Shown here: piece after piece, positions 45,305 to 47,206 of the stretch
Numbering within the stretch: the first letter of the stretch is position 1
Layout: every line of letters begins with the position of its first letter
From: Natrinema longum
GTDB lineage: Archaea > Halobacteriota > Halobacteria > Halobacteriales > Natrialbaceae
NCBI RefSeq assembly: GCF_017352095.1
Contig: NZ_CP071463.1
Location: 1,736,001 to 1,800,000 of the forward strand
DNA length: 64,000 bases
Direction of reading: 5' to 3'
The notes under the pieces: generated by a model
What the model was told of the DNA's origin: nothing
The model's database searches: none
What the model saw: the letters and a program-made list of their open reading frames with translations, nothing else
Position numbers and translations under genes: made by a program

Positions 45305-45354
45305 TTAGGTTCGCCTAAAATTCGATGGGTTTATGACTTTTTAGGTTCGCCTAA
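45305..45354 (+). promoter_or_regulatory. Two DtxR/IdeR-like operators flanking a TATA element
   Basis: TTAGGTTCGCCTAA occurs exactly twice, at 45305-45318 and 45341-45354, 36 bp apart. The arms TTAGG/CCTAA are the half-sites of DtxR/IdeR-family iron boxes. Between them TTTATGA (45330-45336) fits a TATA box; binding of both sites would cover it. Transcription would begin about 45360 and reach the gene at 45477. Confidence 0.65.
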
Positions 45355-45465
45355 AGAGTGGACGATCGGTCCTACAGCGGGCGGACGAGCCGATAGACGG
45401 GAGCGTGGCCGTCGGCGACGCTTCCCACGTCCGCGTGAGCCCCGCGGGACTGAGACTACTCCACT

Positions 45466-45470
45466 GGAGG
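45466..45470 (+). promoter_or_regulatory. Shine-Dalgarno site of the gene at 45477
   Basis: GGAGG six bases before ATG 45477 decides this start over GTG 45405, which has no ribosome binding site. Confidence 0.65.
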
Positions 45471-45476
45471 AACCCC

Positions 45477-46406
45477 ATGGTCGGAACCACACTTCGAGAG
45501 ATCCGCCATCACATCGAACGGCTGGCAAGCAACGACGGAGAGTACTACGTGGTCTGTGCTCGCTCCGGTGAACGGCCGGTACCGGTCGCCGGCCAGCGAT
45601 TCGCGACCCGGACGGACGCAGCAGACGCCGCACACGCAACCGAACAGTACCGTGCCGCACTCAGACGATACGATCCACAGTTGCCGTTCTACGATCCGGT
45701 CGTCTGTCAGGAACGATCCACGAACGCAGCCGGCGGGGCGGAGACGAGCGCTGCCGCCGATTCGGATCGGCCGATCGCGGAACCGACGGGACAGCCGTCG
45801 GCCTCTCGAGATCGACAGCGCGGGACCGACACACCGCTGATCAGTTTCTGCCACGACGTCTCGGGAGCGGTCTTCGAGTCGCTCTCGGCCCGCGACCACG
45901 AGGCAGCCGAGCGAGCCATCATGGACGCGTATCTGGCCGCCGCCGAAGCGACGACCGACCGGAACACGCTCTGTCTGGTGTTGCTCGAGACGATGGCAAC
46001 GGAACTCGAGACACACCTGACTGCGGCGGAGCGAACACGGCTGTTGGGGGCGGCAGCAGCGAACCTCTCGCCGGTCGAGTCGGCGGTGGATCCGGTTTCG
46101 GAGAGTCTCGCATTTCTGGATTCGCTGTCGTTGATACGGGAGTACGGCATTGCACACGATTCGGTCGGGACGACCGGCGGGGGTCGCTGGACCGTCTCCC
46201 TGCGGGGGTACGCTATCGAGTGTAACGAGCGGCGGTTCCCGACGCTACCGATCGGGATCGACATCCTGCGCCGATCGCCAGCCCCAACGGACCGGCTGAG
46301 CGTGACCGATGTCACCGCCCTCGGAGACGGCGACTGGCAGTTCGTCCTGACGAGCGACGCGGAGCCGACGGGCGGGCTCGTCTGTACACAGGAGGGACAG
46401 CCATGA
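45477..46406 (+). CDS. Uncharacterised haloarchaeal protein (DUF7551/DUF7552-like), iron-box operon gene 1
   Basis: 309 residues. Two parts: residues 1-80 (E-I-R-H-H-I-E, Y-Y-V-V-C-A-R-S-G-E-R-P-V-P-V-A-G, then Y-R-A-A-L-R-R-Y-D-P-Q-L-P) and, after a low-complexity linker, residues 120-300 (F-C-H-D-V-S-G-A-V-F-E, L-E-T-M-A-T-E-L-E). From memory these resemble domains catalogued as DUF7552 and DUF7551. No membrane segment or catalytic motif. Placed behind two iron-box-like operators and overlapping the next gene by 4 bp, it may belong to an iron- or manganese-responsive operon. Confidence 0.7.
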   Translation: MVGTTLREIRHHIERLASNDGEYYVVCARSGERPVPVAGQRFATRTDAADAAHATEQYRAALRRYDPQLPFYDPVVCQERSTNAAGGAETSAAADSDRPIAEPTGQPSASRDRQRGTDTPLISFCHDVSGAVFESLSARDHEAAERAIMDAYLAAAEATTDRNTLCLVLLETMATELETHLTAAERTRLLGAAAANLSPVESAVDPVSESLAFLDSLSLIREYGIAHDSVGTTGGGRWTVSLRGYAIECNERRFPTLPIGIDILRRSPAPTDRLSVTDVTALGDGDWQFVLTSDAEPTGGLVCTQEGQP

Positions 46407-47206
46407 CCGGATCGACTGCGGTCCACCGCGCACTCGAGTGTCTCCAGGCGGAACAGGACGCGGTTGCGGATCGAGGCGACGCCTTCGAGACGTTCAAGCG
46501 GCGCGTACAGGAGGTGCCAGCGGAGAGTCCCATCGGAGGGCACCGACAGCGGCCGACCGGATCGACGCCGACAGCGATGGCGACACCGGTCCAGTCCCAG
46601 CGATCCACCCCGTCCGGGGAGCGGTGTATCACCGTTCGAGCCGCGTTCGAAGAAACGGTCCGCCCCCACAGTATCGCCGACCGTGCGGACGACGAGTCGC
46701 TCGTCGAGACGATCGCAGCGGAGTTGACCGAGGACATCGCCGTCGCCCTCACGACGGAAACCGGCTGGACCCCAGCGCTCAAAACGGCCGTCCTCGAGGA
46801 GGTAACGACCAGACAGCGGGAGGTGGAGCTGCTGGAGGAAACCCTTCGAAGCGAACGGGCCACGCTCGAAGGGGCGATCGAGGACATCGACGACATCCTC
46901 GGCTGGCTGCGGTCGACCACCGCGGGATCCCTCCTACAGTGTGACTTCGAGACACTGCGGGCGAAACACGAACAACTCGAGGCGTATCGGGAGCGACTCG
47001 ACGCACTCACTACGGAGCGGCAAGCCCAGTTTACCGAATCAACAAACCGATACGGCCGAGGCGGAACCCGACATCGAACGCTGATCCCGGCTATTTATTC
47101 CGACCTCGACGTACAGTACCCGGTGCTCTCGAGCGCGACCCGGCTGTACGGGATCTGTAGCGACTGTCAGCGGACGGTTCGTACACACCTGACCCGGCGC
47201 GTGTGA
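46403..47206 (+). CDS. Uncharacterised coiled-coil protein (DUF7260-like), iron-box operon gene 2
   Basis: 267 residues. The N-terminal 60 residues and the Q-R-E-V-E-L-L-E-E-T-L-R-S-E-R-A region (about 130-160) are strongly helical with heptad spacing, as is R-A-K-H-E-Q-L-E-A-Y-R-E-R-L-D near 195. The C-terminal I-Y-S-D-L-D-V-Q-Y-P-V-L then C-S-D-C (about 250-256) could bind metal with a partner. From memory it resembles DUF7260 proteins. The ATG overlaps gene 1 by 4 bp, so the two are co-translated. Confidence 0.65.
   Translation: MTGSTAVHRALECLQAEQDAVADRGDAFETFKRRVQEVPAESPIGGHRQRPTGSTPTAMATPVQSQRSTPSGERCITVRAAFEETVRPHSIADRADDESLVETIAAELTEDIAVALTTETGWTPALKTAVLEEVTTRQREVELLEETLRSERATLEGAIEDIDDILGWLRSTTAGSLLQCDFETLRAKHEQLEAYRERLDALTTERQAQFTESTNRYGRGGTRHRTLIPAIYSDLDVQYPVLSSATRLYGICSDCQRTVRTHLTRRV

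Follow-up and report, generated by a model that had tools for sequence, protein, structure and literature searches.

Two exact DtxR-type iron boxes precede a two-gene haloarchaeal operon that probably belongs to the siderophore-iron uptake regulon

The DNA analysed here, called the window below, is a stretch of 64,000 nucleotides from Natrinema longum (contig NZ_CP071463.1, positions 1,736,001 to 1,800,000). Two exact copies of the 14-mer TTAGGTTCGCCTAA, an upstream iron box at 45305..45318 and a downstream iron box at 45341..45354 (neither assigned to a strand), lie 36 bp apart from start to start (45305 to 45341) and bracket a TATA-like element, TTTATGA (45330..45336, + strand), just as an earlier sequence-only reading had described. 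They are exact copies of the palindrome TTAGGNNNNCCTAA at the operon promoter, and the downstream one (full 16-mer TTTAGGTTCGCCTAAA) falls between the TATA-like element and the predicted transcription start. The element, recognized from its sequence, fits the haloarchaeal TATA motif TTWT given in PMC4983044, and the predicted promoter overlaps the site. The same order of TATA, box and start is kept in orthologues, and an AT-rich element lies ahead of the last box in most of those of gene 1. With up to three mismatches, the 14-mer has five matches in the 64-kb window against 1.67 expected, the two exact ones being both at this promoter; in the whole host genome the exact 14-mer occurs at these two places only.

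Downstream of the boxes, gene 1 (45477..46406, + strand, 309 aa) is preceded by a Shine-Dalgarno-like GGAGG (45466..45470, + strand), in a stretch conserved in several relatives of the same genus, and is followed by gene 2 (46403..47206, + strand, 267 aa), whose start overlaps the gene 1 stop in an ATGA, making a two-gene operon plausible. Gene 1 encodes a DUF7552 domain (residues 5-79, E 2.2e-35; 121.2 bits against a Pfam gathering cut-off of 27) and a DUF7551 domain (residues 121-305, E 1.3e-61; 208.3 against 52.6), and gene 2 a DUF7260 protein (E 1.6e-71; 241 against 27). The two-gene operon that the sequence-only reading had placed at 45477 and 46403 thus consists of real genes, with Pfam scores far over the cut-offs. 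The gene 1 product shares 95% identity with a protein of Natrinema ejinorense, and neither protein of the operon matches NCBIfam. AlphaFold2 produced a confident model for gene 1 (mean pLDDT 86.9) and an all-helical one for gene 2 (mean pLDDT 83.5). No function emerged from fold or sequence-profile searches: the best Foldseek hits of gene 1 against the PDB were unrelated MHC and BcsD chains (E 0.057), gene 2 gave helical-bundle noise only, and sequence profiles found no match in the PDB.

Cysteine and histidine residues are conserved in both proteins. In gene 1, C27 is kept in 81, C125 in 87, H126 in 85 and C166 in 82 of 88 aligned sequences, 8 of the 96 gene 1 sequences (L126, L132, L134, L138, L142, L158, L163 and L175) being omitted from this alignment. 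In gene 2, H189 and H262 are kept in 21/21 sequences and C252 and C255 in 20/21 each, and C75 is conserved as well; this alignment omits the tblastn matches adjoining gene 1 in L083, L084, L088, L148 and L155. The pattern suggests a metal or redox role for both proteins.

In the 3.59-Mb host genome, the generalized motif TTAGGN4CCTAA occurs at 22 sites against one for the reversed pattern used as a control. Allowing one mismatch gave 36 sites against 42 for the control, so the exact form alone is informative. According to home-made gene calls and operon walks, 20 of the 22 sites are intergenic, and a 21st is so on inspection; this is site 2620404, where the called ORF is spurious and the motif falls in the gap separating two genes on the opposite strand. 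The remaining site, 2626963, lies in the 3'-terminal part of an ORF, with the next start 14 nt further on. The motif is therefore uncommon outside promoters, a point on which the sequence-only reading depended. Most host sites have a TATA-like stretch before the box and an ATG a few nucleotides after it, and exact box pairs spaced 34-36 bp apart number four in the genome. Among the genes that directly follow a site are those for five Peripla_BP_2 binding proteins of the siderophore type, for two FecCD permeases, for an ABC ATPase carrying a TOBE domain, for an SBP_bac_8 protein and for a DtxR-family regulator, so that the same box does stand before iron-uptake genes of the host. A ferritin-like (Dps) gene near site 3206058 was not counted as a target because it is oriented towards the site and ends before reaching it. 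An IucA/IucC siderophore synthesis gene was not found in the host genome, which, given its several siderophore-type binding proteins, may mean that the organism lives on the siderophores of others.

Across the order, DUF7551 exceeds the cut-off in 89 of 195 genomes. Among 96 gene 1 loci (95 fetched regions plus that of the window), 64 have the box no more than 350 nt ahead of gene 1 (63 with a slightly different start rule); in 23 it stands at the head of the run of same-strand genes upstream, and the applied rule found none upstream in 9. The 64 loci with a near box represent 20/28 genera and 6/8 families; the fractions are 18/18, 19/21, 15/18 and 3/3 in families f1, f17, f12 and f7, and 6/19, 3/13, 0/3 and 0/1 in f4, f5, f6 and f10. 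In f4 to f6, a siderophore-binding gene often precedes gene 1, and the box is found in the promoter of that gene. A double box is found in 18 of the 96 loci, including the window, with a spacing of 36 in 14 loci, 35 in three and 34 in one. A second set of 80 named loci, which shares many contigs with the first and is not an independent sample, gave a box within 400 nt in 51, at the head of the gene run in 11 and none in 18.

A palindrome of 14 bp with four free positions can arise fortuitously, and the reversed pattern indeed occurs 268 times in the 195 genomes, so the boxes might be a chance or structural repeat unrelated to regulation. The true motif occurs 2188 times in the same genomes, and the box precedes gene 1 in 64/96 loci whose proteins are mostly only 33-45% identical, against none in any upstream region of 200 dinucleotide-shuffled sets. 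Moreover, the bases just outside the searched motif, a T before and an A after, are invariant in 64/64 loci, and the spacing of double boxes is nearly fixed. This explanation is hardly credible and can be considered refuted for practical purposes. The DNA itself shows the boxes with their geometry and conservation as well as the regulon, and regulation of the operon by an iron-type box is well supported by sequence comparison.

Several gene 1 paralogues followed by an FAD oxidoreductase gene have no exact box (L141, L156 and, in Haloferax, L323, L331, L337 and L342). They possibly lie outside the regulon or carry a decayed site, and part of the gene 1 family may therefore be outside it.

Both the operator and the regulon are of a known kind. 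Work by the Schmid group on Idr, SirR and TroR is said to concern the DtxR-type iron regulon of haloarchaea. The present sites resemble that regulon, whose operator precedes fhu-type uptake genes in Hfx. according to PMC11349517, where the FerR regulon signal of Leyn and Rodionov (2015) is cited. They also resemble the actinobacterial IdeR/DtxR box, as described in PMC8464063 and PMC10317159: IdeR/DtxR proteins recognize TTAGG/CCTAA arms, and the 14-bp consensus half-site TTAGGNNNNCCTAA binds one dimer of S. erythraea IdeR (one dimer per site, PMC8464063). Whereas the classical actinobacterial box is 19 bp long (TTAGGTTAGSCTAACCTAA) and takes two dimers, the operon has two separate 14-bp sites at a distance of 36 bp, one on each side of an archaeal TATA element; the classical form with overlapping dimer sites is absent here, the bases after the two sites being AATTC and AGAGT.

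PF01325 scores over the cut-off at four places in the host genome, three of which are plausible DtxR-family proteins. The closest solved chain to the three-domain one is 5zr4 (E 2.3e-40), IdeR (1fx7) scoring E 1.7e-27, and a second is shorter. The third (L027 4993-5523, genome 681992-682522) has a box in its own promoter region, which suggests autoregulation; that box, too, is followed by a short frame with an ATG start.

With three candidates, the signal might be manganese or several metals, sensed by a SirR/TroR-like DtxR protein, and the operon might serve general metal balance, especially as SloR, ScaR and MntR, like IdeR, are among the solved structures closest to the three-domain protein. 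The examined uptake targets, however, comprise siderophore-type binding proteins, FecCD permeases and other ABC genes, with no zinc- or manganese-type transporter among them, and a manganese or multi-metal signal is accordingly improbable. The sequence-only reading had left open whether the operon is repressed by iron or by manganese. Repression by such a metal is supported, since the box is shared with iron-uptake genes and kept before diverged orthologues; iron is favoured as the metal because the shared uptake targets are siderophore-type (Peripla_BP_2, FecCD) or other ABC genes, and manganese is the less likely part of that proposal.

Who the repressor is, which way control runs and, most of all, what the proteins do are matters of inference. 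A host repressor of the DtxR family, activated by metal, would use both TTAGGN4CCTAA sites as its operators. Under iron-replete conditions, repressor dimers would occupy both sites and block promoter assembly; because the TATA element has one site on its upstream side and the second between itself and the presumed start, a repressor bound there should obstruct TBP/TFB or the polymerase. Under iron starvation the promoter would be freed and the gene 1 and gene 2 proteins made. Since the same site precedes gene 1 relatives and iron-uptake genes of the host, both proteins very probably belong to the iron-starvation response, where they would act as accessory proteins of siderophore-type iron uptake. 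They are probably cytosolic and possibly handle the imported ferric complex, or iron, through their conserved Cys and His residues.

The gene neighbourhoods bear on this role. Among the 96 loci, the clusters found near gene 1 include Peripla_BP_2 proteins (29 loci, identified through one representative by Pfam), FAD/NAD(P) oxidoreductases (17), ABC ATPases (14, labelled from the sequence start and the place beside FecCD) and FecCD permeases (8). A ferritin/Dps cluster occurs near gene 1 in 11 loci, always on the opposite strand. Gene 1 lies within runs of siderophore-uptake genes in several families of the order; in other families its neighbours are unrelated to iron (phosphopantothenate synthetase, ThiN), and the box still stands directly before gene 1. 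Siderophore synthesis was considered as a partner and is a weak candidate, DUF7551 being present in 35/61 genomes with IucA/IucC and in 54/134 others.

DUF7260 is widespread (over the cut-off in 37/59 genomes) and its link to the box is confined to one branch. Among 40 paralogue loci outside the first set, with the remaining weaker or partial DUF7260 matches left out, those scoring above 230 bits against the gene 2 profile have a box in the fetched region in 9/9 cases, and those below 133 bits in 0/31. The box lies within 400 nt upstream in 3/40 loci and further up in the rest of the nine. A C-terminal CQRxVRxHL-like motif is found in most loci of the >230-bit group and is absent from the <133-bit group. 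The notion that DUF7260 as a whole is an iron family is ruled out by this distribution, and it is gene 2, as a member of the iron-linked branch, to which the accessory role is assigned.

It is conceivable, though rather unlikely, that the operon is iron-regulated and its proteins do not handle iron at all, acting instead in general stress, in the envelope or in regulation. No fold or family gives them an iron function, and other box targets of the host also lack an obvious iron role: a DUF5059-plastocyanin fusion (L026 4080-6548), a DUF7090 gene (L030 5001-5579), a cupin (L036 6689-7060) and an RGP-like glycan protein (L034 13788-14948). Against this stand the siderophore-uptake runs that enclose gene 1 in several families, the conserved Cys/His residues of both proteins and the higher frequency of gene 1 in box-rich genomes, the median being 15 boxes per genome with DUF7551 and 6 without it when kinship and completeness are ignored. 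On balance, we consider it highly likely that the operon is repressed by iron, belongs to the known DtxR-type regulon of haloarchaea and encodes accessory proteins of siderophore-iron uptake.

A fold resemblance, and that only, was seen between DUF7551 and H-NOX/TRAPP-like proteins. VIA-align superposed the DUF7551 model (approximately residues 122-296) on whole H-NOX domains over ~140-160 residues, with Z scores of 5.1-6.5 (below 8) and an rmsd of 4.5-5.5. Gene 1 has no Pfam HNOB match at E 0.001, and kinship with H-NOX found no support in a profile comparison (hhalign), which gave a probability of 0.2% against archaeal HNOB (17 sequences from 11 genomes). The host genome has two HNOB (H-NOX) domain genes of its own (C1:2757882-2758349 and C1:1940201-1940677), as do other members of the genus. 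A speculative and on present evidence doubtful proposal is that DUF7551 is a haloarchaeal iron-starvation protein of diverged H-NOX/TRAPP-like fold that might use the conserved C125-H126 and C166 to bind iron, haem or a ferric siderophore in the cytosol; partnered by the CxxC-bearing DUF7260 protein, it would form a new iron-release or iron-sensing module for imported siderophores, without known bacterial counterpart.

DUF7260, DUF7551 and DUF7552 are unnamed in the literature searched, the regulon tables published by Leyn and Rodionov (2015) and the iron papers of the Schmid group lying outside that scope, and an earlier listing of DUF7551 or DUF7260 genes as hypothetical regulon members is possible. 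Through the operator, iron starvation is linked to three uncharacterised haloarchaeal families: DUF7551, DUF7552 and, within DUF7260, a single definable branch. To our knowledge, the fate of siderophore iron inside haloarchaeal cells is poorly worked out. As widely conserved proteins, the products of the two genes offer concrete candidates for its intracellular handling, and the prediction is testable in Haloferax, which is genetically tractable.

In addition, the leader contains a possible 12-codon mini-ORF (VDDRSYSGRTSR, 45358..45396, + strand) at the predicted 5' end of the transcript, which starts with GTG, ends 80 nt short of gene 1 and is weakly supported within the genus. Leaderless transcripts make up 72% of the protein-coding transcripts of Hfx. 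volcanii (PMC4983044), and this fits the box-ATG spacing in many orthologues. Among loci L081-L175 and L029, with related loci all kept and unthinned, an ATG or GTG follows the box by 0-9 nt in 33 of the 42 where box and gene 1 are separated by more than 9 nt (shuffled mean 10.3, maximum 18), and in 25 of these 33 no more than ~15 nt separate the mini-ORF stop from the start of gene 1 (shuffled mean 10.4, maximum 16), compared with 29 of 73 for other starts in the leaders. The short leader ORF is thus probably a leaderless, translationally coupled mini-ORF.
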